From Solitalea canadensis DSM 3403 (GTDB lineage: Bacteria > Bacteroidota > Bacteroidia > Sphingobacteriales > Sphingobacteriaceae), in NCBI RefSeq assembly GCF_000242635.2, contig NC_017770.1, forward strand, positions 3,918,669 through 3,982,668: 64,000 bases of DNA, written 5' to 3'. The position numbers and the translations under genes are program-made. The notes under the pieces were generated by a model that did no database searches, had not been told where the DNA came from, and saw only the letters and a program-made list of their open reading frames with translations. How positions within the stretch are numbered: the first letter of the stretch is position 1; the number at the start of each line of letters is the position of its first letter. Below, in pieces: positions 17,095 to 45,727 of the stretch.

Positions 17095-19014
17095 TTAGTT
17101 TGCTGTTCCAACCAAAACCACTTTTGATTTATCAGCTTTTGAGATTGCTGTAAGAAACTCAAACAGCTCATTATATTTTTCGGCCGAAAAACGCCCTGCA
17201 TTTCTGACAAACTTCCGGGTATAAATTAACTCATTGTTTTCGAGTTTTACCGAACTTGAAAACTCTCCGAATGCAGTTTTTAGCACTACATCATTGGGTT
17301 TGCTTTCTAAGGTATAGCCGGCAGGTATTTCGTAAACAATTTTATCTTCATCAGTACTGCCAAAATGAAATAGCATATCAGACCGGCGCTTTTCTATTTT
17401 TTCTGGCCCCGAAGTCATACGATTTAACAGATTTGGCTGAATAAAAATCCGTTTACCCGAAATATTTATATAATTAGAAAACTCCAGTTCCAAATGCTCA
17501 TTAATTACAGGTTTACTACCTTTTTCCGCTTTATAATTAAAACTCTTAATTCGTAAACTCGGAATATTGATCGTTTCATATAAATGCTTCTCCACCCTTC
17601 CCTGGCTCACCATATTTGTCCAGTCACTTAAATCATCCTGACGAGTACATTTATACTTCGCATCAACAGTTGCTGCAACAGTTCCAGACAGATCAAATTT
17701 AACCTTTGCACTACGTATCAATGAATTATCAGCGGCGTTATATTCCGGTGTTTTAACCAATTTCCCACCTTCAGGAGTAAACAATAAGGCTTGTCTGTTA
17801 CCCGTAAATTCACCCATATAATTAAATGAATTATACTGACTTGTACATTCTAACCAAACTGTCTCTTTTTCAGTTGGTATTGCTAGCACAACGTGATTAA
17901 AAGGATTATTGACAAAATCCTGATAAATGGTTGAAGGTTCATATCCACCATAGATCAGAGCCGCATGAGCTGTCACTCCGGCTTCTTGTAATAATGACTT
18001 CATGTAATTTGATAGAGCCTTACAATCTCCGTAGCCACGAGTGGCCACATAGTTAGCATCAAACGTTTGAAGCCCTCCGATTCCTAACTGAACACTTATA
18101 TAACGAGTGTTCTTTTGCAGATAATCATACAATATCTGTGCTTTCTCAATTGGATCTTTAGCCGCATCCGTCAACTCATGGACTTTAGCCTTTACATTAT
18201 CCGGTAATTTATCACGGTCTTTATTGATTTTGTAGATCCAATCGCCAAAAGACTGCCATGAATCCATTTTACCATCATAACCTTCATAAGAAAAGTCAAT
18301 TGGTACACATAAAATGCCAGGTCCCTGTTCAAATATCGGAACACTATAAGGCTCTCTTTTGATTGATTTCAGATTGGAAGCACTCCATGTATAGTTATTT
18401 TTACCGTTAATAATTTCCTTTTTTACAGGAACGGCAAGATTGAATTCCTTATATCGTATATTCATGTCTTGCGGAAATACAACCGTGTAGCTACTGTTTT
18501 CTACACTGGTTTTATAGCCACTTAAACCGCTCCATCCGGGATAACTTACTAGACCTACATACTCATATTCGTACTCAAATTCAACTGTATACGGAAAAGT
18601 ATGATGAGTAAGCGTAGCAACCTTTACTCTGTTATCATCATATAAACTAATGTCTTGGGTAGCTTTATAATCTTTAATCTCACTACTCTTCAGTTTTCTA
18701 ACCACATTACCTGTAGAATCATACACTGTTCCTTTAAATGCTTTAATTGGACGCAGCTTATCATAGGATAATACTTGTTCTGACCAATGTTCACCATTAG
18801 AATTCAGAATAGTAACCATGAAATGGTTTGTAAACTTTCCTGAGCCTTTATTTACGATTGTAAAAACGGCATCATCAAAACGTACCACTGCATCAGCATC
18901 TTTTCTTAACTCTGCGGATATATCCTTTGTCGGATATTTTTTGCCATCATCTGCCCATGACTGAAATATAGTTAATGAGCAGAAGATAGCGATAAGGAAT
19001 AACTTCTTCATCAA
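17095..19014 (-). CDS. DUF3857/transglutaminase-like secreted protein with intact triad
   Basis: A 639-residue exported protein (signal peptide to about residue 21, ending SWA). An N-terminal DUF3857 beta-domain (about 45-240) is followed by a transglutaminase-like core with Cys331 (GYGDCKALSNYM), His374 (PFNHVVLA) and Glu389 in place of Asp (WLECTSQ), then a beta-rich C-terminus. The Cys-His-acid triad is thus present and the protein could be a periplasmic peptidase or transamidase. It is the second gene of a pair, starting 3 bp after its paralogue. The substrate is unknown; no secretion-tag sorting domain is seen. Confidence 0.85.
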   Translation of the reverse strand: MMKKLFLIAIFCSLTIFQSWADDGKKYPTKDISAELRKDADAVVRFDDAVFTIVNKGSGKFTNHFMVTILNSNGEHWSEQVLSYDKLRPIKAFKGTVYDSTGNVVRKLKSSEIKDYKATQDISLYDDNRVKVATLTHHTFPYTVEFEYEYEYVGLVSYPGWSGLSGYKTSVENSSYTVVFPQDMNIRYKEFNLAVPVKKEIINGKNNYTWSASNLKSIKREPYSVPIFEQGPGILCVPIDFSYEGYDGKMDSWQSFGDWIYKINKDRDKLPDNVKAKVHELTDAAKDPIEKAQILYDYLQKNTRYISVQLGIGGLQTFDANYVATRGYGDCKALSNYMKSLLQEAGVTAHAALIYGGYEPSTIYQDFVNNPFNHVVLAIPTEKETVWLECTSQYNSFNYMGEFTGNRQALLFTPEGGKLVKTPEYNAADNSLIRSAKVKFDLSGTVAATVDAKYKCTRQDDLSDWTNMVSQGRVEKHLYETINIPSLRIKSFNYKAEKGSKPVINEHLELEFSNYINISGKRIFIQPNLLNRMTSGPEKIEKRRSDMLFHFGSTDEDKIVYEIPAGYTLESKPNDVVLKTAFGEFSSSVKLENNELIYTRKFVRNAGRFSAEKYNELFEFLTAISKADKSKVVLVGTAN

Positions 19015-19017
19015 TTT

Positions 19018-21072
19018 TTATTGATTAGCTTTTTTGAGAACAATCTGTTCTGATTGTTTGGAAATAATACCAGCGTAAAATGCCTTCAACCCTTCATACT
19101 CTTCTGGTAAGAACATCGTTTTATTAAAACTAACTATAGTTCTCACCTGGATTTTAGTTCCCACCTGACCGATTGTATAAGAAAATTTAGCACCACCTTC
19201 TGATAGATCAAAACGTGCTGATTTAGGCAATTCATCAACAATATAACCTTCCGGAATATCAATGGTAACCATGTATGAGTCTTCCTTTGCAGTTGGAAAA
19301 CTTACCGGATATTTTCTGTCTTTTGCTTTAAAAACATTCTCAGTAAATGAACCGAATAGTATAGGGTTTATATAAATAATCGAATTGTTATTTAATTCTT
19401 CTTCTGATTCAAATGAAAGCTTAGTAACTAAAGTCGTATCAATATTTTTTAAATTATCAAAACTGTGCTTAGAGATTACAATACCATTTGTTTTAAATGC
19501 CTTTTTAAAATAATCATCTTCATTAGTAATCTCCGCAACTGAGCTTCTCATATTGGCAGCCTCGTAATCTTTTGCATAAACAATAATATCTCCTGCTAAT
19601 TTTCCATCTTTAAGTCCTAAAGACGCCACAGTCAATCTTTTAGCTTTTAAATTATCATTCTCCAACTCAACCCAACGACCTTCACTTTTTTGATTAATTA
19701 AGCGCCCTTTGCCATTTAAACAACGCTCCGGGAGTAGGTATGATGGTCTGTGTGCATCGGTTGCGTCAAGTAATAAATCAGTGCTATCTAAACGAACAGC
19801 TGCAATTACATAGTTAAAATTATCAACCATAGGGTAGTATTGATTCACCCTTCCGTTTCTCCGGGTACTTAATAAAATCGGATTAGCCTCTAAACCGGCT
19901 TCTCGTAACATACCCACTAATAAAAGGTTAATATCAGCAGCACTTCCTGTTTTCTTTTCAAATACTGTTTTAGGAGTTTGTGACGCTAGGTATCCATTAT
20001 TGCCATTCCATTTAACATTGCTTTTAAGAAATGAAGCAATAGCTACCGAACGTGTTGCCATGTCCGGATACTTATCCGCAATTACTTTAATTTGATCTTT
20101 TAAAAACCCTGTACGATTCATTGAACTTGCAAAACCGTCGGTATTGTAAATTGCTTCCGTAACTTTCTCCCATGTATTCAATACCCCATGATAAGCCGAT
20201 TGTGGATATTGATAGCCCTGAAGCTGAAACTTGATTTTCGAAATATAATCATCTTTGGTGGTGATGAATTTATCATCGGAAAAAGCAGGTACATCTTTCA
20301 TAACCCAACGATAATCTGTAGTACGTGCAGAAACACTTGCAGAACCTGCGCGATTTCCTTCGTTGCCTTGGGTAGCGATGTTTGAACTCCACCTGATCAT
20401 GAATTGTTCATTACCATCTTTCTTCTCGTTAATAGCAAATGGGTTATACCCTTGCATTTCCAGTTTATAGAAATAATACTCAGGAATACGGGCTGTGTAT
20501 TCACTCCATATTACCGGATATTTCCCCTGAAACTCCCATTCTTTAAAAAAGGTAGTACGATCTGTTTTGATAGTATAGATAAACTCAATAACTGCACCCT
20601 CTTTAACATTAGGTAACGTGAATTTCCTATTGTTTAAGTTGTCAGTTATCTTTTCATCAAAGATTCCTTTACTGTCTAGCTTATACTCATTGATTTTACC
20701 ATTTTCGAGCAGATAGGTAACCCCTTTTAGCTGAGTGATCTTTTCTTTGGAATAAGCTCCACTATAATATGGGATCTCAAATGTAGCATCATCAAAAGCT
20801 GCTTTATTAAAAATTTTGATGCGACAGTGACGTTCATGTACTAATTCAAAATCGTCTTGTCCCCATACAAAATAAGAGTTCCCGACGTCGGCTAATACTA
20901 CAGCATTGGCACTTGAATCTAATGAATAAATGGGCATGGTTAGTTCTTCCATGCTTACTTTCCCGTATTTAACGGGTGTCTTTTGAGCAATTGTAGATAA
21001 CGGCAGTATAATGCATAGGCAAAATGCGCCAATCAATCTAATAAAAGAATTAGTTAGGTAAAAATTGGACAT
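19018..21072 (-). CDS. DUF3857/transglutaminase-like secreted protein lacking Cys and His
   Basis: A 684-residue paralogue of the downstream gene, also exported (signal ending LSTIAQ). The order is DUF3857, transglutaminase-like core, C-terminal beta region. The core block KTGSAADINLLLVGMLREAG aligns with the GDC block of the neighbour, but Ala378 sits in the Cys position, and Tyr421 (NFNYVIAA) sits in the His position; the acid (Asp436, LLDATD) is kept. This protein is therefore probably not catalytic. The GSxADIN form is seen in other Bacteroidota, so it is likely a settled non-catalytic subfamily. It may bind the same ligand as its neighbour or assist it. Confidence 0.85.
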   Translation of the reverse strand: MSNFYLTNSFIRLIGAFCLCIILPLSTIAQKTPVKYGKVSMEELTMPIYSLDSSANAVVLADVGNSYFVWGQDDFELVHERHCRIKIFNKAAFDDATFEIPYYSGAYSKEKITQLKGVTYLLENGKINEYKLDSKGIFDEKITDNLNNRKFTLPNVKEGAVIEFIYTIKTDRTTFFKEWEFQGKYPVIWSEYTARIPEYYFYKLEMQGYNPFAINEKKDGNEQFMIRWSSNIATQGNEGNRAGSASVSARTTDYRWVMKDVPAFSDDKFITTKDDYISKIKFQLQGYQYPQSAYHGVLNTWEKVTEAIYNTDGFASSMNRTGFLKDQIKVIADKYPDMATRSVAIASFLKSNVKWNGNNGYLASQTPKTVFEKKTGSAADINLLLVGMLREAGLEANPILLSTRRNGRVNQYYPMVDNFNYVIAAVRLDSTDLLLDATDAHRPSYLLPERCLNGKGRLINQKSEGRWVELENDNLKAKRLTVASLGLKDGKLAGDIIVYAKDYEAANMRSSVAEITNEDDYFKKAFKTNGIVISKHSFDNLKNIDTTLVTKLSFESEEELNNNSIIYINPILFGSFTENVFKAKDRKYPVSFPTAKEDSYMVTIDIPEGYIVDELPKSARFDLSEGGAKFSYTIGQVGTKIQVRTIVSFNKTMFLPEEYEGLKAFYAGIISKQSEQIVLKKANQ

Positions 21073-21372: not shown

Positions 21373-22068
21373 TTAGTCAATATTAAATTTATATCCTATA
21401 CCTCGTACAGTTTGAAGCAACTGCGGATTTTCCGGATTGTCTTCAATTTTCTTTCTCAAACGCACAATATGCATATCGAGGGTTCTGGTATTAACATCAG
21501 AGTTATACCCCCAAACCACCTGCATTAATTCGTCGCGATTAATCACTTTATTTGGGTTTTTAAGGAAATACAGCAAAATTCTATTTTCAAGAATAGTAAG
21601 CTCTATCTTCTTATCATCACTTGTAATAAGCGAATGAATGCTTGGGTGATGTTCCATATTGTGGAACTTATGTACTTCGCTCTTATCCTGTGTAAGCAGG
21701 AACTTCACTTTATTATCCAACAAAGCCAACATTACATCCATGTTGAATGGTTTTGTAATATAGTCAGATACGCCAAAGTTATAAGCGTCAATCTTATCAA
21801 CATCCTGAGCTTTGGCAGTCATCATGATAATCAGGTTTTCAAAATTCTGCTGACGCAATGATGCACATACTGCCGAACCTTGTTTACCAGGCAACATCCA
21901 GTCCAATAAAACCACTTCGGGTTCTTCACGTAAGATTAAAGCCTCTCCGTCAGGGCCATTGGCTGCTTCAAATACTGTATATCCTTCTTTTTCTAATCTA
22001 CTTGCTACTAAAAAGCGGAGATTTTCATCATCCTCTACAACAGCTACTTTTATTCTTTTCTTTTCCAT
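21373..22068 (-). CDS. OmpR/PhoB-family response regulator
   Basis: A 231-residue regulator. The receiver domain has acidic residues 13-14, the phospho-acceptor Asp56 (VLLDWMLPG), Thr84 (MMTAK) and Lys106 (ITKPF). The C-terminal winged-helix domain ends in TRTLDMHIVRLRKKIEDNP and VRGIGYKF, typical of the OmpR type. It is the last gene of a leftward operon with the sensor kinase (24 bp upstream) and the S9-like lipoprotein. The target genes are unknown. Confidence 0.95.
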   Translation of the reverse strand: MEKKRIKVAVVEDDENLRFLVASRLEKEGYTVFEAANGPDGEALILREEPEVVLLDWMLPGKQGSAVCASLRQQNFENLIIMMTAKAQDVDKIDAYNFGVSDYITKPFNMDVMLALLDNKVKFLLTQDKSEVHKFHNMEHHPSIHSLITSDDKKIELTILENRILLYFLKNPNKVINRDELMQVVWGYNSDVNTRTLDMHIVRLRKKIEDNPENPQLLQTVRGIGYKFNID

Positions 22069-22092
22069 AGAGCTATCTGTATTATATGGTAT

Positions 22093-23784
22093 TTAATTCT
22101 TTCTTAAAGGTAATACAATTTTAAATTCTGAGCCTTTACCAGGCTTACTTTTTACGTTTATCTCTCCATTCATGAAATTAACTATTTCTTTGCAAAACGC
22201 CAGACCAATTCCGACGCTTCCGTGCCTGTTAAATTCATTTTCAACTTTATAGAACTTCTTGAAGACATTTTCAAGTTCCTGCTTTTCAATCCCAATTCCC
22301 TGATCAATAAACCTGAACACTACTGATTTCCGCTGCCTTTTAACATTAATATTTAAAAACTTATTGCCCGGAGGAGAATACTTGTAGGCATTGTCCATCA
22401 TGTTTGTAAAAACACTGTTCAGCAAAACCGCGTCTGTCTCAAAGTGTTCAATATCTTCAATGTGATATTCAACGTTAAAATCAGGGTATTTAATATGATA
22501 AGCATCTACTAAATTCTGACAAAATACTTCAAGGTTTATGGTTGAATATTTGAGTTTTATTGATTTATTTTCTAATTGCGTAAAAGACAGCAACTTGGTC
22601 ATTAAATCATTCAGTTTATCAGCTTCCTCATTTAATATCCTTCCATAATTCAATCTTTCCCTATCGGTTAAAGAATCACTACTCCTTATATTATCGCCCG
22701 CTATTTTAATAACACTTACAGGTGTTTTAAATTCATGCGTAAGGTTATTAATAAAATCATATTGAAGTTTAAATAACTTTTGATTAATATTTAAGTTTCT
22801 GAAAATCAGAAAAGCAATAAATAAAACTAATAAATAAACTACAATAAAACCGATAGCCAACGGAGTAAATATGCGGTATATTTCCCTATTGAGAAAATCT
22901 CTGCTGGAGATAAAATACAATTGATAATCCGAAAATGCCCCAGGCAAAGAAATGCCTGTAGTGTAATAATGTCTTCTATCAGTACTTAATGAATCAAACA
23001 TAAAGGAATGAATACTTATATGTTGATACAACTGAGGGTTAGTATTCTCAATCCTTAATGCTGCAGGGTTTAAATTAAACACCATCAAATCCTGCTCATA
23101 AACCGCCGATGGTGCTTGCTTTTCACTGCCAAAAAATTCTTTATACGTCCTTATCTCTTGTCGTCGTGGAACATTCAAGAAGCTGATCTTATTATCGTTA
23201 ATAGAGTAATAAGTATTAAATATTTGACTAGTTTCGGTTACTCTATTTGTATCTACTTCTTCTACGTAAGAAATAAACTTTAACAACGCACTGCTAAAGT
23301 CGCTTTCAATGACTGGTGCGTAATTAAACACCCGATCTTTTCTACTGTATAATAGTTCAGTTGAATGGTGTTTATTGAACTTATAAATAGACTTAAATTC
23401 AGCGGAAAAATGATCTTTAGTTAAGCCCGTAATAATTTTATGGTTACTTATTTCCAGGTCATAAAACACAAGTGAATTAACGAAAGAATAACGTCTGAAA
23501 AGATCTTTGGAAACCTTAGCAATCGATACAGAATCAAGGAAGCCTTGATAAAGTGAAAACTTAGGTATTTCAGAATTCACGAACTCATTGTATGGCTCTA
23601 TTGTTTTATCCAATACTTTAGCTTTTTCACTATCAAACTGGCCTTCAACAAATCGTTGAGTAAACTTGTAAGCTAAAAAAAGGGCAAGCAAAAAAGATAA
23701 CGAAACAAGGATAAAAAAGCTGGTAATTAGCACCAGGTTTTGTCGATATGTATTTTTTTGTTGCGGTTGTTGTCTTGTTTCCAA
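22093..23784 (-). CDS. Membrane sensor histidine kinase
   Basis: A 563-residue kinase. Transmembrane helices lie at about 16-41 and 305-328, enclosing a large periplasmic sensor domain of about 260 residues with no recognised fold. There is no HAMP domain: the second helix leads directly through a short linker to the H-box FINNLTHEFKTPVSVIK, with His350. The ATPase part has the N-box (NMMDNAYKYSP), G1 (DQGIGI), F-box and G2 (GSVGIGLAFCKEIV). It phosphorylates the neighbouring response regulator. It starts 13 bp after the S9-like lipoprotein gene, which suggests that the lipoprotein and the sensor domain work on the same side of the membrane. Confidence 0.93.
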   Translation of the reverse strand: METRQQPQQKNTYRQNLVLITSFFILVSLSFLLALFLAYKFTQRFVEGQFDSEKAKVLDKTIEPYNEFVNSEIPKFSLYQGFLDSVSIAKVSKDLFRRYSFVNSLVFYDLEISNHKIITGLTKDHFSAEFKSIYKFNKHHSTELLYSRKDRVFNYAPVIESDFSSALLKFISYVEEVDTNRVTETSQIFNTYYSINDNKISFLNVPRRQEIRTYKEFFGSEKQAPSAVYEQDLMVFNLNPAALRIENTNPQLYQHISIHSFMFDSLSTDRRHYYTTGISLPGAFSDYQLYFISSRDFLNREIYRIFTPLAIGFIVVYLLVLFIAFLIFRNLNINQKLFKLQYDFINNLTHEFKTPVSVIKIAGDNIRSSDSLTDRERLNYGRILNEEADKLNDLMTKLLSFTQLENKSIKLKYSTINLEVFCQNLVDAYHIKYPDFNVEYHIEDIEHFETDAVLLNSVFTNMMDNAYKYSPPGNKFLNINVKRQRKSVVFRFIDQGIGIEKQELENVFKKFYKVENEFNRHGSVGIGLAFCKEIVNFMNGEINVKSKPGKGSEFKIVLPLRKN

Positions 23785-23797
23785 ATCGGCAAAAAAC

Positions 23798-25684
23798 TTA
23801 TTTCTTTAAATTTTCATTAAAAAACTCTTCCATTGCATTATAAAATGCCAGCCTGTTCTCCTGTTTTGTAAAATAAGCCCCTTCATTTTGCTTAAGAATG
23901 TATTTTACATCCACACCACGCTTTTGAAGTGTTTTCACCAATTGGTTGGTTTCCTCCACATTTACACGAGGATCTTTAGCTCCTTGCGCTATCAGCATAG
24001 GCGTGTTTATTTTTTCTGCGTGAAATATCGGGGATACATCTCGCAATGCATCTGCATCCGATTCCGGATTTCCAACCAATGCATAATACATACCTTGCAT
24101 GGATTTATAATAAGGAGGAATATCTTTTAAATAAGTGAAAAGATTTAACAGTCCACAATATGAAACTCCACATCGGTACAATTCTGGAGTTTTTATACAT
24201 CCTATAAATGCACTGTAGCCGCCATAACCATTTCCATAGATGGCAATACGATTAGAGTCTGCTACATTTTTCTTAATTAACCATTTTACTCCGTCAGTAA
24301 TATCGTCCTGCATTTTACCACCCCATTCTTTAAAAGAAGCTTGAAAAAATGCTTTTCCATATCCGGTAGACCCCCTGTAATTAACTTGTAAAACAGCATA
24401 TCCTCTATTGGCCAAAAATTGTACTTCAGAATTATAGCCCCATTTAGTACGCGACCATGGACTAGGTCCTCCGTGAGGAATTACTACTAAAGGCAATTTT
24501 TCTGATTCCTTGCCTTTAGGAAGAGTAAGGTATCCGTTAATGGTTAGTCCGTCCCTTGATTGATAAGCAATTGGCTTCATATCAGCCATTTCAGACTCAT
24601 GAATCCAAGGAGAAACATCACTAAGTTTGGTTAACTTATCGGAATTGTTTTCATATAAATAAAAAGTTCCGGGATTTTTATCGCTATAAGTACGAACAAG
24701 AAATTTTTCTTCCTTTTTGTCGACACCTGCTATCCATAGATCTTTACCCGGAAGCTTTTTGGAGATATTTTCATAAAAACATTGAGAAGGCTCATCCAAA
24801 AAGTGTACTTCATACTTCCAGGTAGTAAATCCTACCCATAATAATCTTTTTAATACTTTAGAGTATCCAATTTCTGCTACGTCAACATCTTTATTCTCAT
24901 AGATTGTTTTTATTTCCTTTCCGGTTTGCAGGTCAATCTCTACCAAAGCCATTTTATCACGACCAATGTTCGAAAGAGCATAAATGTGTTTATTATTTTG
25001 GAATGAGAAGCATTGTGGATCAAGTGTTTCATTAAAGCCGATGCTGGTTACAACTTTAAAAGGCTTATCTTCTGATGGCCTGTATAATAATCGCTCATTA
25101 ACACCGTCAGTTTCAATTGCTAATAATAATTTCCCTTCGTGGTCGGCCTGCCAGAAATTAATATTTCCTGGGTTTTCAGCAATTATTTTGGACTCACCTG
25201 TTTCAAGATTCATTCTATAAGCGTCGAACTTTTTAGGATCACGCTTATTCATTAGCATTAAGATATTACCATCGTCTAAAATATCAATCAAGCGAACAGT
25301 AACTTCCGGGTAAGGAGTAATGTCATGACTATTTGAGCCATCCTTATTTACAGCATATAAGTGATATTTCTCATCGCCATTATTGTCTTTCAAGTAAACC
25401 AGTTGATTATTTCCACCCCACCAATATTTCAATACAGCATCTTCACTTTCAGCTGTTACCTGAGTAACTTCATTGGAGCTCAGCTTCTGAACAAAAATAT
25501 TAAGCCGATTATTATATGGTTGCAAAAACGCCACGTATTCACCGTCGGGTGATAAGCGAAAATACGTTCGTTCAGGATTTCTGAAGAAATCAGCAATAGG
25601 TATTTCCCGTACTGCAGTTTTTTTATCACACGCACTTATCACAACAGCAAATAAGAACAACACGTATTTACAAAATACCTTCAT
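23798..25684 (-). CDS. S9 (prolyl oligopeptidase-like) lipoprotein lacking catalytic Ser and His
   Basis: A 628-residue protein with a lipoprotein signal (lipobox ISAC, Cys19), an N-terminal beta-propeller (about 30-360) and a C-terminal alpha/beta-hydrolase domain, the S9C layout. The usual G-x-S-Y-G-G elbow reads GNGYGG, with Gly486 instead of the nucleophilic Ser. The usual NEGHGF of the catalytic His reads NEGAYF, with Ala603 instead of His. The Asp571 region (GAKDPRV) is kept, as are the oxyanion-side HGGP motif and the NYRGSTGYG motif. I checked the codons: GGT and GCT, no frameshift. The protein is therefore likely not a peptidase. It is the first gene of the kinase/regulator operon, and a ligand- or peptide-sensing role is an inference. 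Confidence 0.85.
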   Translation of the reverse strand: MKVFCKYVLFLFAVVISACDKKTAVREIPIADFFRNPERTYFRLSPDGEYVAFLQPYNNRLNIFVQKLSSNEVTQVTAESEDAVLKYWWGGNNQLVYLKDNNGDEKYHLYAVNKDGSNSHDITPYPEVTVRLIDILDDGNILMLMNKRDPKKFDAYRMNLETGESKIIAENPGNINFWQADHEGKLLLAIETDGVNERLLYRPSEDKPFKVVTSIGFNETLDPQCFSFQNNKHIYALSNIGRDKMALVEIDLQTGKEIKTIYENKDVDVAEIGYSKVLKRLLWVGFTTWKYEVHFLDEPSQCFYENISKKLPGKDLWIAGVDKKEEKFLVRTYSDKNPGTFYLYENNSDKLTKLSDVSPWIHESEMADMKPIAYQSRDGLTINGYLTLPKGKESEKLPLVVIPHGGPSPWSRTKWGYNSEVQFLANRGYAVLQVNYRGSTGYGKAFFQASFKEWGGKMQDDITDGVKWLIKKNVADSNRIAIYGNGYGGYSAFIGCIKTPELYRCGVSYCGLLNLFTYLKDIPPYYKSMQGMYYALVGNPESDADALRDVSPIFHAEKINTPMLIAQGAKDPRVNVEETNQLVKTLQKRGVDVKYILKQNEGAYFTKQENRLAFYNAMEEFFNENLKK

Positions 25685-25835
25685 AAAGTTTACTTCTTCT
25701 CTCTTTTATTTAAGTTAACGTGTTAAAAATAGTTAAAATTGAAGGCCCTGAAATGGGCTGTAACAACAATTTTACCCCCTAAAAACAATAATATTACGCT
25801 GTTTTAACGGTTGTAACAAAGAAACGATATAAACT

Positions 25836-25855
25836 CGCATATTATTTAATATGCG
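25836..25855. promoter_or_regulatory. Perfect palindrome enclosing the start codon of the MoeA-like gene
   Basis: CGCATATTA, spacer TT, TAATATGCG: a 9-bp perfect inverted repeat. The right arm contains the ATG at 25851-25853. It could fold in the mRNA and hide the start codon, or be a dimeric repressor site overlapping the transcription or translation start. Confidence 0.5.
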
Positions 25856-26762
25856 TTCCACATTGACTACCGTAGAAGAGGTTTTATTCTCAATTAATCA
25901 GCAGTTTGCCCCATCAAAACGTATTGTTCGTATTGATTTAGCAGACTCATTAAATATGTTTTTAGCAGAAGACCTGCTATTGCCGGAAAAGCAAAACATA
26001 TATGAGCACAGTAATTTTGCAACATACGAAACTACTTTGAAAAAAGGTACATTGTTGCGCCCTTATGAATTAGGTATTTTACACAAGGTGGATATTGAAC
26101 AACTTAATGTTTACAAACCTATTGAAGTTTGTATTCAACCGGTTTATACCAATCTTTATCCATCAAAGCCTATTATTTCGCCTATCATTAAGAGTCTGAT
26201 CAAGCATTTCGAAGGAGTGAACACTACCTTAGAACCCATGCTTATAAAAGAAAATCCGGATGTGGATTTTCAGATCAAGACACTAATTGATAAGTCTGAT
26301 ATTATATTAATTACTGGATATGATCATCACATGCTTGCCCCTAAATTTGAACAGTTTGGTATAAAATTCACCACAAACAATATCGATCAGACGCCAGGCA
26401 ACAAAACGCTGGTGGGCTTTGATGATCATAAAATTGTTATGTTTTTACCAGAAGAACAAACCGGTGCTTTGCTAAATGCAGAACTTTATGGCCGTGCAGC
26501 TATTTTAAAAGCCTTAGGAAGACCTTTTGAGTTTATTAAAGCAATTTCTGCAAGCATTTATGAAAATGATACTCATAATACTCATTTTTCAATAGGTCGT
26601 TATTCAGTATTTGATAAAGATGTAATTGTTAGCTTTCAACAGAAAGTAGATGAAATTATTCTCACCGATTACGCCTCTGCAAACTGTTATGTACGAATAT
26701 TACCTAACACCACTATTGCAAAAGGCGCCACAGTTGAAATACTTCCATTCATTGGAAATTAG
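25851..26762 (+). CDS. Degenerate MoeA-like (molybdopterin molybdenumtransferase-like) protein
   Basis: A 303-residue protein, about 100 shorter than MoeA. The N-terminal part resembles MoeA domain III/I (TTVEEVLFSI, LADSLNMFLAEDLLLP, then GTLLRPYELGILHKVDIEQL). The middle resembles the molybdopterin-binding fold (SDIILITGYDHHMLAP). The C-terminal part resembles MoeA domain IV (YASANCYVRILPNTTIAKGA). The conserved MoeA motifs are lost: the S-x-M-D-G-Y-A block reads SNFATYET, TGG becomes TGY, and GLPGNPVS becomes FLPEEQTG. No other molybdopterin gene lies nearby. It is unlikely to insert molybdenum. The function is unknown, and the family call rests on patterns I could not test by search. Confidence 0.62.
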   Translation: MRSTLTTVEEVLFSINQQFAPSKRIVRIDLADSLNMFLAEDLLLPEKQNIYEHSNFATYETTLKKGTLLRPYELGILHKVDIEQLNVYKPIEVCIQPVYTNLYPSKPIISPIIKSLIKHFEGVNTTLEPMLIKENPDVDFQIKTLIDKSDIILITGYDHHMLAPKFEQFGIKFTTNNIDQTPGNKTLVGFDDHKIVMFLPEEQTGALLNAELYGRAAILKALGRPFEFIKAISASIYENDTHNTHFSIGRYSVFDKDVIVSFQQKVDEIILTDYASANCYVRILPNTTIAKGATVEILPFIGN

Positions 26763-36715: not shown

Positions 36716-37621
36716 TTAAATCTTATCTACTAACATCATCACTTGAATTACCATAATATACAGAAAACCTGTAAGCATCACCTTCTTTGCAGAGACAACA
36801 TCGCAATTCTTAATTAACTTGTAAGCAGGAAATAATCCCCAAATACCCATAATGATTGCTGAAACAAGATAAATCTCTCCAACATAATTATACGTATACA
36901 GAAGGATACTTACCGGAATCTGGATAATAGAAGAAGCCATAATCCAATAAGCACTTGCTTTAGTTGTGCCCGACAGAGATGGTAGCAAATAAAAACCCGC
37001 CTTATTATAATCCTCATTCAATAACCAGGCAATTGCCCAAAAATGAGTGAATTGCCATACAAACTGAACGGCAAATAATAAGCCTGGCTCCATTCCAAAG
37101 TGATTAGCACTTGCTACATACCCTAATAATGGCGGCATTGCTCCTGGTATAGCTCCAACAAATACAGCCAAGCGAGAAACTTGCTTTAATGGCGTATAAA
37201 TAAAAGCATACGATAACAATGAGAATATTCCAAAGAACGCGGTTAAGTAATTAACTTGATATCCTAACAACAACACTCCCGAAACACCCATTACAATGCT
37301 GGCAATCAATGCTTCGGTAACCGTCATGCGACCTGATGGAAGCGGACGGTCTTGCGTGCGACGCATAAATTTATCGAGATTTCTCTCCAGTATTTGATTA
37401 AATCCATTGGCTGAACCTGTTACCAGAAATCCTCCGATGATTAATGAAATAAACTTTGACCAATCCATTACCTCAACACCTTTATCGGCGTAGAGATAAG
37501 AAATAGCAGCCGTAAACACGACCAGAGAGCTCAAACGCATTTTTACCAACGAAGCATAATCAGCGTACTTGGCAGAAATAACGGTTGATATATCGGTTTT
37601 AACTGTTTTTTCTAAAAACAC
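36716..37621 (-). CDS. ctaB: Protoheme IX farnesyltransferase
   Basis: A 301-residue UbiA-family enzyme with about nine helices. It attaches a farnesyl chain to heme B to give heme O, the first step to heme A. The motif NGFNQILERNLDKFMRRTQ followed by DRPLPSG carries the conserved Asp residues and the R-P-L-P-S-G end. It is followed by subunit III and preceded by ctaA, so heme O and heme A synthesis are made in the same operon as the oxidase. Confidence 0.94.
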   Translation of the reverse strand: MFLEKTVKTDISTVISAKYADYASLVKMRLSSLVVFTAAISYLYADKGVEVMDWSKFISLIIGGFLVTGSANGFNQILERNLDKFMRRTQDRPLPSGRMTVTEALIASIVMGVSGVLLLGYQVNYLTAFFGIFSLLSYAFIYTPLKQVSRLAVFVGAIPGAMPPLLGYVASANHFGMEPGLLFAVQFVWQFTHFWAIAWLLNEDYNKAGFYLLPSLSGTTKASAYWIMASSIIQIPVSILLYTYNYVGEIYLVSAIIMGIWGLFPAYKLIKNCDVVSAKKVMLTGFLYIMVIQVMMLVDKI

Positions 37622-37632
37622 TTTCTTCTTTC

Positions 37633-38706
37633 TTAAGCGGCAACTGTTACGGTCGCCTTAATTCTAAACAAAAACAAAATGGCCCAAACCTGAACTCCGA
37701 ACATTAAGCACCCAAAAACAAGGTGCAATGTTTGAAACACTGGAGGAAGTGCCAATTGTGCTAATACAATTCCTGTGACTATTTGTAATCCAACAAGAAT
37801 CGTATTGTAGTTTACCAACTTCACAAGTGTTGTTGATGAAACTTTTCTTAGCAAATAATATAAAAATGCAGTTAAAACAGCCACTCCTATTGCCAGTTCT
37901 CTGTGAGTAAAAAATAGTGAACCTACTCTGCTTACCCACTGATCTCGTGCGTTGTCATTTAAAACAGCAGCAATTTCGTCAATCACCTCTCTAACCTGAG
38001 TTCCTATAAGAATTTGCACAATGGTTAAGATCAGCAATAAAGAGGTTGTCCACTTTACTTGTTTAAACTTAACGCCTTCAAACTCCGAAGATGAAAACTT
38101 TCTAACCTTGGCCAACTCATATATATAAATGAAAAGAGCCAAAATTACCAAGGCAATCAGCATGTGAATCGTAACCATATAAGCTTTCAGATTACTCTCC
38201 ACTACTTTAGCCCCCATCCATCCCTGAAAACCAATAAGAAAAAGATTTAACAGACTTAATGCAAACACATTACCTTTTCCCAGTTTAATATAACTGAATG
38301 AAAAAATCACGGTTGCAATTGCGCCAAAACCTAAAAGAACACCTGCTAAACGATTTACATATTCAGTCCAGGTATGATATACATTGAATTTAGCATAATC
38401 ATGCTTGGTATATTTTTCCCAGTCGCTCGGAATAAATTCTTTGCCTGTTGTAAAATCGCTTTTAGCTTTATAAAGGGCTTCATTCCAAATTACTACGTAA
38501 CCTTTTTTGAAGAACTTCCCTTCAGAAAAAGTAAGCTCATCAATTGTAGTAGGTGGAATATAATGACCGAAACATTTAGGCCAATCGGGACAACCCATCC
38601 CAGAACCTGTACTTCTTACCACACCACCTGCAAAAATTACAAGGTAAGTGAGCACAATTGTTATAAAACAAACGGATAAGAATTTTTTTTCGGATTTACT
38701 CTGCAT
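37633..38706 (-). CDS. ctaA: Heme A synthase
   Basis: A 357-residue protein of the COX15/CtaA family that oxidises heme O to heme A. It has about eight helices, the MGCPDWPKCFG motif after the first helix, and heme-ligand His residues in VNRLAGVLLG (preceded by YHTWTEY), MVTIHMLIAL, FFTHRELAIGV and LQTLHLVFG. The extra hydrophilic loop after helix 1 is normal for Bacteroidota members. It is separated from ctaD by a hairpin (38720-38754). Confidence 0.93.
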   Translation of the reverse strand: MQSKSEKKFLSVCFITIVLTYLVIFAGGVVRSTGSGMGCPDWPKCFGHYIPPTTIDELTFSEGKFFKKGYVVIWNEALYKAKSDFTTGKEFIPSDWEKYTKHDYAKFNVYHTWTEYVNRLAGVLLGFGAIATVIFSFSYIKLGKGNVFALSLLNLFLIGFQGWMGAKVVESNLKAYMVTIHMLIALVILALFIYIYELAKVRKFSSSEFEGVKFKQVKWTTSLLLILTIVQILIGTQVREVIDEIAAVLNDNARDQWVSRVGSLFFTHRELAIGVAVLTAFLYYLLRKVSSTTLVKLVNYNTILVGLQIVTGIVLAQLALPPVFQTLHLVFGCLMFGVQVWAILFLFRIKATVTVAA

Positions 38707-38719
38707 TTCTGTATAAAAG

Positions 38720-38754
38720 TTGAGTACCTGATCAATAAATGATCAGATACTCAA
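38720..38754 (-). terminator. Strong hairpin between ctaD and ctaA, possible internal terminator
   Basis: A 15-bp stem with one mismatch (TTGAGTACCTGATCA/TGATCAGATACTCAA) and a 5-nt loop lies in the 56-bp gap, followed on the minus strand by CTTTTATA. It could partly terminate the long Act-cox transcript or protect the ctaD mRNA 3' end. Confidence 0.65.
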
Positions 38755-38762
38755 TTTTAATA

Positions 38763-40682
38763 TTAATTAGATTCCTGAGCTTTTTGCTCTTCTGAAACCG
38801 ATAAAGTTTTTGATGAATAGTGCTCATGTGTAAACTGAGCCTCATCTCCATGATATCCAAAATCATGAGGAGTATTTGAACTTACGGTTTCAGCCAATGT
38901 TACAGTTTGAGGGATGAAATCTTTTTCAGCTCCAGGTTTACTGTAATCATATGGCCAACGATAAACAGCAGGAATTTCACCTGGCCAGTTACCGTGGAAG
39001 TGCTCAACCGGAGTAGTCCACTCTAAAGTATTAGAGTTCCAAGGGTTTTGAGGAGCACGTTTACCTTTGAAAATGTTTACAAAGAAGTTATACAAGAATA
39101 AAACCTGCGCAATAGCACCTAAAATAGCTGCTAAAGTGATGAACTTATTCAATGATAACCATTTAGTGAACATTTCAAATTCAGTAAAGGTATAATAACG
39201 ACGAGGAACACCGTCTAAGCCCATAAAGTGCATTGGGAAGAATACCAGGTAAGCAGAAATAAAGGTTAACCAGAAGTGTAAATAACCTAATTTGCTATCC
39301 ATCATCTTACCAAACATTTTAGGATACCAGTGGTAAACACCCGCCAACATACCAAAGATTGCAGAACAACCCATTACGATGTGGAAGTGAGCAACTACGA
39401 AATATGTGTCGTGTAAGTTGATATCTAATGAAGGGTTTCCTAAGAACAGACCTGTTAAACCACCAGAGATGAAGAATGACACCAATCCGATAGCGAACAA
39501 CATTGCAGGAGTAAAGTGAATATTACCTTTCCATAATGTTGCAAGGTAGTTAAAGGTTTTTACAGCAGAAGGAACCGCAATGATCAACGTAGTAAACATG
39601 AACACCGAACCTAAGAATGGGTTCATACCGGTTACAAACATGTGGTGTCCCCAAACGATGAACGAAAGGAACGAAATACCCAACAATGAACCGATCATTG
39701 CACGGTAACCAAAGATTGGTTTACGTGCATTAGTAGCGATGATCTCTGAAGTAAGACCTAAAGCAGGCATAATGATGATATATACCTCTGGGTGACCTAA
39801 GAACCAGAATAAGTGCTGGAATAAGATCGGGCTACCACCTGTATTAGGTAAAGCCTCTCCACCTAAGTAAATATCAGACAAGTAGAAACTTGTTCCGAAG
39901 CTGCGGTCAAAAATCAAAAGAATTACTGCTGCAAATAATACAGGGAATGACAATAGACCCAAAACAGCAGTTAAGAAGAACGCCCAGATAGTCAATGGCA
40001 TACGAGTCATTGACATTCCTTTGGTACGCATATTTAATACAGTACTGATGTAGTTGATACCACCCATCAAAGATGAAGCGATGAACATTGCCATTGAGAT
40101 CAACCACATTGTCATACCCACACCTGAACCAGGCATTGCTTTAGGCAAAGCAGATAACGGTGGATAAATTGTCCATCCCGGACCGGCAGGACCGGTTTCC
40201 ACGAAGAATGAAGCAACCATCACAACGCTTGCCATAAAGAAGAACCAATATGAAAGCATGTTCATGAAAGGCGAAGCCATATCACGAGCACCAATTTGAT
40301 AAGGGATCAGTAAATTTGAAAAGGTTCCACTTAAACCAGCTGTCAATACAAAAAATACCATGATGGTACCGTGTATTGTAACCAATGAAAGGTAAAACGC
40401 AGGATCTAAACGCCCACCAGCTCCCCATTTGCCCAAAAGTACTTCGAACAAAGGAAACTCTTTATCAGGCCATGCCAACTGGATACGGAAGATGATAGAT
40501 AATATCATCCCGATTACACCCATAATAATACCGGTGATCAAAAACTGCTTGGCAATCATCTTGTGGTCCATACTAAAAACGTATTTCGACAAGAATGATT
40601 CATGGTGATGCCCGTGAGCATCGTGGCCATGAACATCGTGATGATGAACTGCCTCAGGAGAACTTATTGCTTGAGTAGCCAT
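38763..40682 (-). CDS. ctaD: Cytochrome c oxidase subunit I
   Basis: A 639-residue heme-copper oxidase catalytic subunit. It has the CuB and heme ligands in TIHGTIMVFF (heme a His), WFLGHPEVYI (CuB His with the cross-linked Tyr), WGHHMFVTGM (two CuB His) and HDTYFVVAHFHIVMG (heme a3 and heme a His). The N-terminus carries a His-rich tail (HHDVHGHDAHGHHHE) and the C-terminus extends by about 60 residues beyond the last helix. Together with subunit II it reduces oxygen to water and pumps protons. The GHPEVYI signature and a long subunit II indicate an A-family enzyme. Confidence 0.97.
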   Translation of the reverse strand: MATQAISSPEAVHHHDVHGHDAHGHHHESFLSKYVFSMDHKMIAKQFLITGIIMGVIGMILSIIFRIQLAWPDKEFPLFEVLLGKWGAGGRLDPAFYLSLVTIHGTIMVFFVLTAGLSGTFSNLLIPYQIGARDMASPFMNMLSYWFFFMASVVMVASFFVETGPAGPGWTIYPPLSALPKAMPGSGVGMTMWLISMAMFIASSLMGGINYISTVLNMRTKGMSMTRMPLTIWAFFLTAVLGLLSFPVLFAAVILLIFDRSFGTSFYLSDIYLGGEALPNTGGSPILFQHLFWFLGHPEVYIIIMPALGLTSEIIATNARKPIFGYRAMIGSLLGISFLSFIVWGHHMFVTGMNPFLGSVFMFTTLIIAVPSAVKTFNYLATLWKGNIHFTPAMLFAIGLVSFFISGGLTGLFLGNPSLDINLHDTYFVVAHFHIVMGCSAIFGMLAGVYHWYPKMFGKMMDSKLGYLHFWLTFISAYLVFFPMHFMGLDGVPRRYYTFTEFEMFTKWLSLNKFITLAAILGAIAQVLFLYNFFVNIFKGKRAPQNPWNSNTLEWTTPVEHFHGNWPGEIPAVYRWPYDYSKPGAEKDFIPQTVTLAETVSSNTPHDFGYHGDEAQFTHEHYSSKTLSVSEEQKAQESN

Positions 40683-40705
40683 GGTAATACTATTTTTCTC
40701 TCTAA

Positions 40706-41923
40706 TTATTTAATATTAATTGCCAATGATTTATTTGCCGCTACAGTATCTGCTTTTGTTGAATCAGCAGGAGCCGTTGCCGGAGTTGGAGCAGCAGGAG
40801 TTGGTTTTTCGTGCTTTTGAACCCAGAAAGGTTTTTGCTCTTTTAACCAAGCTCTGTATTCTTTTTCACTTACTACTTTGATTACAAACTTCATATTGAA
40901 GTGAGATGCACCACAAATCTTGTTACAGTACAATAAGTAATCAAATTTAGCATCGTTTACTTTTGAACGCATTTCATTAGTCGTAATGGTTGGAGTAAAC
41001 GTAAAGTAAGTGTTCATACCAGGTACACAGTTCATCTGCACGCGGAAATGCGGCATATAAGCTGAGTGAATTACATCTTTTGCTCCAAATTGGAACTGTA
41101 CCTGTTTATTTACTGGCAATACAATTTCTTGAGGGAAAAAGTCGTCGTGAGAAGTGCTGTCTTGATCAAACTTAACACCTAACACGTTATCACCACCAAT
41201 TAAACGATAGTTACGAGCACCTAACACATTGTCTTTACCTGCATAGCGCACTGTCCATTTAAACTGTTCTGCAACAGCCTCAACTTTAATAGTGTTCGCT
41301 AAATCGCCTGGGTACATAATGGTTGTCCAGGTTTTCCAACCAAAGAACACCAAAATACTTAATACGATAGCAGGAACCAATGTCCAGATTTTCTCTAAAT
41401 TGTCGTTGTGAGGATAGTAATAGGCTTTATGTCCTTTGCGATTTCTATAAAGGAAAACATAAAGGAATAATAAAACGTGAGTGATTACGAATACAGCGAA
41501 AGTGATGTAAAACGTAACATGCAACAGGTTATCCGTATCAACACCATGCTTTGAAGCAGGCTCTGGTAAAATCATTTTACCATGGTGAGCAAACTCCCAA
41601 AAAGCACCATATAAACCTAAGAAACCAATTGTAAGGAATAATGTTGCGTTGATTGAATTCCAGTTAATGCCTTTTTTCTTTCCGGTAGCAGAGGCTGTAA
41701 GTTCATACACTTTTAATGCACGACCAACTACACCAAGAATAAAACCGGCAGCAACAAACATTAATATGTAGAAAGCAACAGAAAGCCACATATCTGAGCG
41801 TGCAGCTGCCTTTGTAGCTTCAGCGCCAGCGTCGGTAGCTTTATCCTGCGCCATTGCTACATTAGTGATTAATGTAGCAAGAGCGGCAGAAGTAAAGAAT
41901 GTTATTTTTTTAAGTATCGACAT
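40706..41923 (-). CDS. ctaC: Cytochrome c oxidase subunit II
   Basis: A 405-residue protein. After a signal peptide (ends AMAQ) it has an extra pair of N-terminal helices (about 45-68 and 90-112) before the usual two, and then a CuA domain with the first ligand His in IHSAYMPHF and CNKICGASHFNM (C-x3-C-x3-H-x2-M). It receives electrons from cytochrome c or the Act complex. There is no fused cytochrome c domain. A proline/alanine-rich tail closes the protein. The added helices are typical of Bacteroidota enzymes that dock onto alternative complex III. Confidence 0.95.
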   Translation of the reverse strand: MSILKKITFFTSAALATLITNVAMAQDKATDAGAEATKAAARSDMWLSVAFYILMFVAAGFILGVVGRALKVYELTASATGKKKGINWNSINATLFLTIGFLGLYGAFWEFAHHGKMILPEPASKHGVDTDNLLHVTFYITFAVFVITHVLLFLYVFLYRNRKGHKAYYYPHNDNLEKIWTLVPAIVLSILVFFGWKTWTTIMYPGDLANTIKVEAVAEQFKWTVRYAGKDNVLGARNYRLIGGDNVLGVKFDQDSTSHDDFFPQEIVLPVNKQVQFQFGAKDVIHSAYMPHFRVQMNCVPGMNTYFTFTPTITTNEMRSKVNDAKFDYLLYCNKICGASHFNMKFVIKVVSEKEYRAWLKEQKPFWVQKHEKPTPAAPTPATAPADSTKADTVAANKSLAINIK

Positions 41924-41939
41924 AGTTATAGGATAACGA

Positions 41940-43151
41940 TTAGATATTTGGAATATGGTGGTGAGTACTCTCCTCGAGGTACGGATGGTTTTTAGGTGCC
42001 AAAGGTGCTTTGCTCAAACCTCTCAACATAAAGAATGTGAACAAACCTGCAAAACCGATCAAAGTACCAAACTCATAAAAACTGAATCCGCGTTCTGCAC
42101 CAACAGATCCTGGCATAACCATTAAATAATAATCTAACCAGTGGCCCACAAGGATAATGATTGCAGCCCACTTCATAGTTTTGAAGTTACGCTTGCTATC
42201 GCTGGTCATTAACATAAGGAATGGAATCAAGAAGCAGATCACAATATCTAACCAGAATAGGAATTTATACTCAGGGGTCCAACGATTCACGAAATACGTT
42301 AACTCTTCCGGAATATTTGCATACCATATCAATAAGAACTGAGCAACCCAGGTATAAGTCCAGAAAATAGTAAAACCAAACATCAGTTTACCTAAGTCAT
42401 GCAACTGACTTGTGTTAAACCAAGGTAAGTAACCATTTTCTTTTAACAGAATTGCCACTAAAGCAATTGCCGAAAGACCTGTAACCCATAAAGCTGCCAA
42501 ATTCCACCAGCCAAACATTGTCGAGAACCAATGTGCTTCAACAGACATCATTGCATCGAACGCGAACAATGGGAAAGTGAAACCAAAGATCACTAAAAAG
42601 ATAGCTGATACTTTAATACTTTGACTATAGTTGTTCATTCCACCCTCTAAGTCTTCACGTAAAGTGAATTTTCTCAAAAAGTAAACGAACGCTCCCCAAA
42701 CGATCACATATAATGCAATACGGGTAAGGAAGAATGGCATATTTAACCATGCTGCTTTACCAGCGATCAGGTGATCATAGTGAGGACTATTAGGATCAGT
42801 AATTCCTTCTGCATGCCAGTGATGATATAATTGGTGAGTATATAATCCACCAAAGATAACCGCAAACAGAATTACACCCGCGAAAGGAATAACTGTAGTG
42901 AAAGCACTTGGAATACGCAATATGCTTGTTGCCCATCCTGCATTTGCTACATACTGAATTGCAATAAACATTGCACCAGCAAAACTTAAACAAGTCATAT
43001 AGTATGCACAAACCAACAAGTTAGCCCAAGTACGTTCAGTATTTGTTGCAAAGCCAATACCTACACACACCACTCCAATAATAATTGCAGCAATGCTTAA
43101 TGTTTTGGCTTTACCTGAAAACTCAAATTGTTTTGAAAGATCTAGTTGCAT
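41940..43151 (-). CDS. actF: Alternative complex III subunit ActF
   Basis: A 403-residue integral membrane subunit with about ten helices. It belongs to the quinol:cytochrome c oxidoreductase family of NrfD-like proteins. Features include FLTRIALYVIVWGAFVYFLR, a conserved TMFGWWNLAALWVTGLSA and the region NIPEELTYFVNRW, which is typical of ActF. It pairs with ActC in the membrane part of the complex. Order and spacing (25 bp to actE, 16 bp to ctaC) place it in the operon core. Confidence 0.93.
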   Translation of the reverse strand: MQLDLSKQFEFSGKAKTLSIAAIIIGVVCVGIGFATNTERTWANLLVCAYYMTCLSFAGAMFIAIQYVANAGWATSILRIPSAFTTVIPFAGVILFAVIFGGLYTHQLYHHWHAEGITDPNSPHYDHLIAGKAAWLNMPFFLTRIALYVIVWGAFVYFLRKFTLREDLEGGMNNYSQSIKVSAIFLVIFGFTFPLFAFDAMMSVEAHWFSTMFGWWNLAALWVTGLSAIALVAILLKENGYLPWFNTSQLHDLGKLMFGFTIFWTYTWVAQFLLIWYANIPEELTYFVNRWTPEYKFLFWLDIVICFLIPFLMLMTSDSKRNFKTMKWAAIIILVGHWLDYYLMVMPGSVGAERGFSFYEFGTLIGFAGLFTFFMLRGLSKAPLAPKNHPYLEESTHHHIPNI

Positions 43152-43176
43152 TGAATTTTAATTTAAAGTCCAAAAA

Positions 43177-43746
43177 TTATTGTTTTTGAAGGAATTGAAC
43201 ATACTGAATTACTTTCCAACGCTCTGTAGCACTTAACTGAGAAGCATGAGAACCCATCGCTCCTTTACCATAAGTGATTGAATAGAACATTTTACCTTCT
43301 GACAAATCTTTCAGCTGAGCTGAATTATATGCCGGAGGAGCCGGAAATCCACCGTTTTTAACTACTTGTCCGTCAGCCATACCAGTTTTACCGTGACAGT
43401 GAGAACACATATTTAAAAACAACTGTTTACCTTCTGCTAAGCTAGCCTCAGTATGAGCAATAGGGCTTTTCAATTCAGCACCGGAAGCTTCATAACCTTC
43501 TGGTGTATGAGGATAATGGAACGATTCAAAATTTTGCGGAATAGTTCCGGCAACAGGAGTTTGAGCAGTTTTACCATCAGCAAAAGCAGCATTCTTTTGA
43601 TCCGGATTGTAAGCAACAGGACGATACATCTGTGGAGCGTATTCAAATCCCGGATCACGTTTAACCTTTGAGCAGGAAGTCAAAGCAACTGCGGCGGTTA
43701 AACCCATTACTAAAACGCCTCTCATTTTATTTTTTAACATAATCAT
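43177..43746 (-). CDS. actE: Alternative complex III monoheme cytochrome c, ActE
   Basis: A lipoprotein-type cytochrome c with one CSHCH heme site in the C-terminal third and lipobox ALTSC after the signal. I use the ATG at 43746 (189 residues); the reading frame opens at a TTG two codons earlier, and an ATG at 43740 is also possible. ActE passes electrons from the Fe-S/heme chain of the complex to the oxidase or a soluble cytochrome. A Met ligand is probably the one in GKGAMGSHA, close to the C-terminus. Confidence 0.93.
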   Translation of the reverse strand: MIMLKNKMRGVLVMGLTAAVALTSCSKVKRDPGFEYAPQMYRPVAYNPDQKNAAFADGKTAQTPVAGTIPQNFESFHYPHTPEGYEASGAELKSPIAHTEASLAEGKQLFLNMCSHCHGKTGMADGQVVKNGGFPAPPAYNSAQLKDLSEGKMFYSITYGKGAMGSHASQLSATERWKVIQYVQFLQKQ

Positions 43747-43752
43747 TGGCAA

Positions 43753-45700: not shown

Positions 45701-45727
45701 AATATCGTGAGTTTAGAAACTTTAAAA

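Follow-up and report, generated by a model that had tools for sequence, protein, structure and literature searches.

Why would a bacterium keep, at the head of a two-component operon, a peptidase-like protein whose active site lacks its nucleophile? The question is raised by a 64,000-nucleotide stretch of the Solitalea canadensis DSM 3403 genome (a single contig of 5.2 Mb), here called the window, in which three minus-strand open reading frames follow each other as lipoprotein, sensor histidine kinase and response regulator (Table 1). The lipoprotein has the fold of an S9 peptidase and is predicted to be catalytically dead. It is separated from the kinase by 13 bases, if TTG is taken as the kinase start codon, and the kinase from the regulator by 24 bases; the upstream part of the kinase, from this TTG to the conserved YR(Q/K)N segment, has no in-frame ATG or GTG. 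A first-pass annotation, made from the letters of the window, had described this operon with the same gaps, which are confirmed with the TTG start assumed, and had suggested that the lipoprotein is a co-receptor that binds a peptide or proline-rich ligand and signals to the kinase. On balance, we favour an S9-fold pseudopeptidase that joins the kinase and regulator encoded after it as a third component with an accessory role.

Fold and active site of the Solitalea lipoprotein

The Pfam family Peptidase_S9 (PF00326) covers residues 415-627 of the lipoprotein with 150 bits. The predicted structure is confident nearly throughout (predicted local distance difference test score, pLDDT, 92.5; predicted template modelling score, pTM, 0.90), and Pfam, model and fold search all give the propeller and alpha/beta-hydrolase fold of S9 peptidases. 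The solved folds closest to the model are acylaminoacyl peptidases and puromycin hydrolases, with 7c72 (VIA Z 35.2) and the acylaminoacyl peptidase 5l8s (Z 35.0) tied as nearest. The latter superposes with a root mean square deviation of 3.4 over 584 residues and is the best PDB relative by sequence profile (E 1.1e-74); for DPP10 (4wjl) the value is 3.3e-15. The tree described below was built without DPP4 relatives. The lipoprotein is far under the curated cut-offs of named S9 equivalogs (Dpp5 NF053518, 116.8 of 900 bits; lasso isopeptidase NF033523, 74.4 of 400 bits).

The loss at two separate positions of a full-length gene, as first read from the window, stands. The frame of 628 codons is intact, the nucleophile site reads GNGYGG in place of GxSxGG (Gly486, GGT) and the site of the catalytic His reads EGAYF in place of EGHxF (Ala603, GCT). 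The third triad residue, Asp571 (GAT), is present, and Arg573 and Tyr509 are the same as in intact relatives. Nine long S9-fold frames were read in the Solitalea genome (L001-L009, the window copy being L007), and the other eight all have GxSxGG. Cys19, the predicted lipidation site, is kept in at least 90% of the 51 rows of alignment A1. The likeness to acylaminoacyl peptidase (5l8s, and also 7c72, 3azo and 1ve6) runs over the whole length, but the window lipoprotein differs from it in lacking the nucleophile Ser and the catalytic His, in its predicted lipidation and in being tied to a kinase operon.

Repeated loss of the catalytic residues

The sample consisted of 301 Sphingobacteriaceae genomes including that of the window. 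A lipoprotein relative was found in 290 at E 1e-60, and 206 of these were examined, 30 through match loci and 176 through longer stretches (180 stretches, four of them for paralogues). Paralogue loci and 29 named loci from another collection, partly of the same genomes, were added. The 244 protein rows gave 232 distinct ones after identical rows were merged, 207 beside a kinase and 25 stand-alone. The triad could not be scored in an operon copy (L269) and in a stand-alone fragment (L086), which leaves 206 and 24. L230 was counted as an operon copy; its kinase is present in an open frame that overlaps.

Ser, His or both are lost in 168 of the 206 scorable operon copies, both in 149, and the two residues are intact in 38; the Asp is retained in 202. 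The triad is intact in all 24 scorable stand-alone homologues, one of them a fragment. At the Ser site the 168 inactive copies have Gly (150), Arg (8), Ser (6), Asn (2) or Glu (2), while the residues at the His site vary strongly. The Ser codon is AGY in all 37 intact copies in which it was read. Because Gly and Asn are each one transition away from AGY, the excess of Gly (150 against 2) is read as a sign that selection has favoured a small residue where the nucleophile elbow is tight, and with it the fold.

It is conceivable that the protein is still an enzyme, another residue having taken the place of Ser and His or a different reaction being catalysed. The dead state is deduced from sequence only and Asp571 is nearly always kept, but we give this explanation hardly any credence: 149 of the 206 copies are without both Ser and His, the oxyanion Gly405 is gone in 135 of the 168, and the residue before the nucleophile site varies (S, T, N, G, A, Y and others), so that there is no fixed substitute nucleophile.

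The nearest named relatives, Solitalea agri and S. longa, are 80% identical in the lipoprotein. The sample contains three orthologues from the same genus (78-80% identity), all with GNGFGG and a Thr at the His site, and both Ser and His are thus lost in all four genomes of the genus. A stand-alone S9 paralogue of the genus is whole, with an intact triad, in two other species and has no close match in the window genome; in genome G029 (L270:4464-7793) this second gene is split by a frame of 444 amino acids, presumably a transposase. The inactive state seen in the window holds for its close orthologues, an outcome in favour of the first-pass annotation, but not for orthologues of approximately 50-55% identity in the same operon. 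Because these retain Ser and His, the dead form is a derived one that arose repeatedly. Daejeonella lutea is one species with an intact relative of the window protein.

The phylogenetic tree, calculated with the active-site columns removed and rooted on Chlorobiota homologues, included all but four of the 232 rows (two fragments of the broken paralogue and two truncated copies). In it the operon copies group together as a clade of 205 rows (support 100) that arises from within the intact stand-alone enzymes, and the ancestor of the operon most simply carried an intact triad. Under unordered parsimony the intact and lost states interchange at least 13 times, and 17 losses are required if loss is irreversible; the latter count stays at 17 once branches with support below 90 are collapsed. 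Seven of the 17 irreversible loss events include at least one member without Ser but with His. No event has Ser without His as its sole state, the six copies of this kind being nested among copies that lack both. Where the order is visible, Ser was lost before His.

Selection on the inactive copies

The inactive copies are under strong purifying selection, where this can be measured. With the Nei-Gojobori method and only pairs with a synonymous divergence (dS) of 0.15-1, the 12 inactive pairs had a median ratio of nonsynonymous to synonymous divergence (dN/dS) of 0.036 (range 0.013-0.26) and the 10 intact pairs one of 0.048; the top value of 0.26 comes from two draft-genome copies, one of them a fragment. 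A lipobox-like N-terminus was found with a looser pattern in 161 of 163 inactive copies, six of the 169 being left out, and in 36 of the 37 intact operon copies tested. A stricter pattern matched 89 of the 169 and 29 of the 37. Ordinary decay, the gene degenerating after the enzyme became unneeded, is therefore already largely refuted and is very improbable. It would account for the drifting triad sites, the six Ser-without-His copies, the broken copies in G283 and G141 and the loss of the gene in one genus (see below), but not for the low dN/dS, the retention of lipobox and operon, or an inactive state common to whole genera.

The ten most relaxed columns in the inactive copies are 603 (z 5.2, the highest), 31, 602, 573, 82, 325, 546, 509, 230 and 104. 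By sequence, 603, 602 and 573 would lie at the active site and 546 and 509 probably near it, with the other five elsewhere. Column 573 lies two residues past the triad Asp, which we take to be a substrate-binding place in related enzymes; Arg is found there in 35 of the 38 intact operon copies and in 106 of the 168 inactive ones. The oxyanion-loop Gly405 is present in 24/24 stand-alone homologues, 21/38 intact operon copies and 33/168 inactive copies, 117 of the last group having Asp or Asn. Since only 21 of the 38 operon copies with intact triad have this Gly, the catalytic apparatus may have loosened in part before the triad went. Four propeller positions, Asp322, Tyr304, Tyr274 and Asn358, are tighter in the inactive copies.

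These patterns bear on the peptide co-receptor, in which the dead active site binds an uncut peptide and presents the complex to the kinase. The fold is predicted to be intact, the Asp is nearly constant, and the window copy has kept Arg573 and Tyr509. In genus g16 all 32 rows have a basic residue (Arg or Lys) at 603 and an oxyanion loop reading HDG; such constancy at replaced sites makes a clade-by-clade re-shaping and reuse of the cleft conceivable. Nevertheless, half of the ten columns listed above lie at or near the active site, including the declining Arg573, and Gly405 has largely gone. This relaxation and the Asp or Asn at 405 speak against the former active site binding a single, conserved peptide or proline ligand, and we regard the co-receptor as improbable. 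What survives of the original suggestion is signalling rather than catalysis as the likeliest role, together with the stable linkage to the kinase; its peptide or proline ligand is weakened.

Linkage to the kinase and the regulator

Pfam reports the HisKA and HATPase domains in the kinase, with HAMP not reported. By sequence the window pair is predicted to be a two-component system, with a phospho-acceptor His and ATPase domain in one protein and a receiver Asp and DNA-binding domain in the other. The phospho-acceptor His is found in all 169 kinases adjoining lipoproteins not scored intact, and the receiver Asp in all 159 regulators from operons with a non-intact lipoprotein.

The kinase is present once per genome in 150 of 151 genomes of the order (E 1e-60), and the exception, G066, is also without the lipoprotein. 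A search of the class with the whole kinase (E 1e-50) matched 6/198 genomes and a search of the phylum with the sensor profile A3 matched 8/296, all of them in the family; 20 non-matching genomes are listed for each search, all from other families. When the full kinase model was used for fold searches, the matches were mainly to the kinase core, and an unlisted sensor fold is for this reason no sign of a new fold.

The kinase adjoins the lipoprotein in 30 of 30 match loci, and in the longer stretches 179 of 210 proteins are in the strict order lipoprotein, kinase, regulator. The other 31 are 20 kinase-less homologues from the named loci, five paralogue rows (two of which are halves of one broken gene), three stretches ending at contig ends, two bisected lipoprotein genes (G283 and G141) and L230. 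All 205 rows of the operon clade adjoin a kinase. The lipoprotein was not separated from the kinase in the copies examined, which again favours the annotation of the window, and is kept with the kinase gene as in accessory-lipoprotein systems. The flanks vary by genus: among the 179 operons both flanking markers were found in 76 and neither in 54, some of the missing markers perhaps being undetected relatives, while the three genes remain together.

Comparison with known systems

No paper on the lipoprotein-kinase-regulator operon was found in a literature search whose coverage was thin for subscription papers and bioRxiv. According to a survey of prokaryotic prolyl oligopeptidases, the triad is highly conserved in all subtypes (PMC4522959). 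Mammalian DPP10 and DPP6 are S9-fold pseudopeptidases that act as accessory subunits of Kv4 channels, with Ser changed to Gly in DPP10 (GKGYGG) and to Asp in DPP6 (PMC4350108), and fly DPP10 is described as both enzyme and accessory subunit (PMC4350108, PMC4873792). DPP10, including the human protein (PMC4350108), shares with the lipoprotein the Ser-to-Gly change and, on our reading, the accessory role. It differs in that DPP6 and DPP10 belong to the S9B subfamily and are type II membrane proteins with an ion channel as partner, and in that DPP10 retains His and Asp. Inactivation in the operon clade would be independent of that in DPP10, because the clade has intact members of its own.

Accessory lipoproteins of kinases are found elsewhere. 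In the MtrAB-LpqB system of Actinobacteria, a three-gene operon, the lipoprotein LpqB modulates the kinase MtrB (PMC5487470). The set of regulator, kinase and lipoprotein is the same, but no LpqB model is among the six Pfam families reported for the window lipoprotein at E 0.001. Pfam, we assume, includes such a model, and LpqB presumably holds a beta-propeller and no S9 hydrolase domain. QseG is a lipoprotein that binds the co-encoded kinase QseE of QseE/QseF and raises its autokinase activity (PMC12691602); this enterobacterial system is likened to the operon by mode of action, not by relatedness. CspC of Clostridioides difficile (PMC4619724) shows that serine pseudoproteases can have a part in sensing in bacteria; it is subtilisin-like, acts in spore germination and has no two-component partner in the text consulted.

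A genus without the lipoprotein

In genus g10, six genomes of 1.3-2.0 Mb gave no match to the lipoprotein. In five of them (L287-L291) the kinase and regulator genes occupy the usual locus and directly adjoin the TPR gene that normally lies upstream. By its kinase, g10 clusters with g23 (support 98) and g24 (support 100), two genera whose lipoproteins have an intact triad. Because of this grouping with lipoprotein-bearing genera, the lipoprotein gene was most simply lost in g10. As g10 retains the kinase and the regulator, the lipoprotein would modulate the system rather than be indispensable to it.

The sensor comparison covered 178 of the 211 kinases. With g23 and g24 absent, 8 of 28 near-fixed sensor positions are changed in the five g10 genomes, compared with 26 of 454 in 17 other genera; for kinase-core positions the counts are 7/97 and 36/1643. 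The g10-specific changes that remain when g23, g24 and the window genus are added are at Tyr79, Asp84, Ser85 and Arg207, which are retained in the window genus, g7, g23 and g24. This makes 4/28 in the sensor against 2/97 in the core (381 and 421), and a link between the sensor changes and the missing lipoprotein is suggestive only.

Several observations speak against an accessory role in signalling. The addition of the sister genera showed the changes at 69, 75, 202 and 288 to be inherited, and the fall from 8 to 4 of 28 weakens the case; genus g3 has the lipoprotein yet also has changed 84 and 85, and in g10 the genomes are small and the kinase is more divergent than any other in the comparison. 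Thirty-eight operon copies retain Ser and His, and since the genus without lipoprotein sits among lineages with intact triad, what matters there could be peptidase activity. The operon copies being a single clade, kinase linkage and loss of catalysis are not independent traits. For Solitalea itself dN/dS is unmeasurable (dS saturated, dN 0.06-0.15). Two genomes (G283 and G141; loci L221 and L269) have a broken lipoprotein gene before the kinase frame, the result either of recent decay or of a faulty assembly.

A non-enzymatic envelope scaffold or chaperone under two-component control would be co-regulated and not co-sensing, the operon serving dosage without contact to the kinase. A shared operon alone gives the same picture, g10 keeps its kinase and regulator without the lipoprotein, and the tighter propeller positions could belong to a surface that binds some partner, whichever it is. 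Every row of the operon clade has the kinase, however, and the four sensor positions that differ specifically in g10, which lacks the lipoprotein, point, as a thin signal, to contact. We consider the scaffold rather unlikely, though the most probable of the alternatives.

The accessory component that we favour could work as follows. The operon is conserved throughout the Sphingobacteriaceae sampled, and its catalytic residues were lost many times while the lipid anchor and the linkage to the kinase were kept. The folded lipoprotein would touch the periplasmic domain of the kinase, perhaps around residues 79-85, and set kinase activity in response to envelope state or a ligand. The shared function would require fold, lipid anchor and kinase, with hydrolysis dispensable. 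Where a lineage has the triad intact, the protein may combine the roles of enzyme and accessory component, as reported for fly DPP10. A wider history is close to evenly balanced and is put forward tentatively: one kinase-linked S9 peptidase may repeatedly have become a catalysis-free co-sensor (at least 13 changes, or 17 losses without reversal), mostly by a DPP10-type Ser-to-Gly change, with the intact-triad ancestral type, Ser-only intermediates, dead forms and deletion side by side on an orthologous kinase.

Other features of the window

The coordinates of the operon and its features are given in Table 1. Upstream of the lipoprotein, at approximately 25722-25738, a TTTTAAC element forms a TTAAC-N5-TTAAC direct repeat with a 10-base period, which is found in four Solitalea genomes (three exact, the fourth with one mismatch). 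It is a possible candidate site for the OmpR/PhoB-type regulator, that is, for autoregulation. As a family-wide regulator site the repeat was rejected, with 13 of 209 upstream stretches having it with at most one mismatch compared with 6.6 in shuffles.

Table 1. Coordinates in the window of the three operon genes and of sites within them.
Feature	Position	Strand	Remarks
S9-fold (acylaminoacyl-peptidase-like) lipoprotein	23798..25684	-	628 amino acids, ATG start, intact frame, first in operon
Predicted lipidation site Cys19 of lipoprotein	25628..25630	-	codon place computed from start of open reading frame
Lipoprotein codon 486 GGT, Gly at nucleophile Ser position	24227..24229	-	
Lipoprotein codon 571 GAT, triad Asp retained	23972..23974	-	
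Lipoprotein codon 603 GCT, Ala at catalytic His position	23876..23878	-	
Sensor histidine kinase, HAMP-less	22093..23784	-	563 amino acids, TTG start; Pfam HisKA and HATPase_c
Kinase sensor domain, residues 40-300	22885..23667	-	profile A3 matches confined to family in searches made
Kinase segment 79-85 (YQGFLDS), candidate lipoprotein contact	23530..23550	-	suggested by changed residues
Kinase phospho-acceptor His350	22735..22737	-	
OmpR/PhoB-type response regulator	21373..22068	-	231 amino acids, ATG start; Pfam Response_reg and Trans_reg_C
Regulator phospho-acceptor Asp56	21901..21903	-	

Divergent from the lipoprotein, at 25851-26762, is a protein of 303 amino acids with weak MoeA/Glp-like matches and no Pfam match; it is also present in L296 of the same genus and was not found at that place in L292 and L293 of other genera. 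Two tandem DUF3857/transglutaminase-core proteins (17095-21072) lie on the same strand 300 bases past the regulator, as they do in G029, and are possible targets of the regulator. At 36716-48868, UbiA, COX1, NrfD and 4Fe-4S proteins stand in a row that resembles what we take to be a cytochrome oxidase and alternative complex III cluster, ordinary for the phylum.

Significance

For annotation the operon family is a warning, in that 168 of the 206 proteins at this locus, which are S9-family relatives, are probably not peptidases. Accessory lipoproteins acting on kinases are already a known kind, as are S9-fold pseudopeptidases serving as accessory subunits in animals. Accounts of how enzymes turn into signalling proteins usually draw on one or two ancient events. 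In the operon family, many independent and staged losses have taken place beside the same conserved partner, intact relatives can serve as controls, and the bacteria are environmental, several of them named strains. Such a system would allow direct tests of whether an accessory role precedes the loss of catalysis and of which residue goes first.

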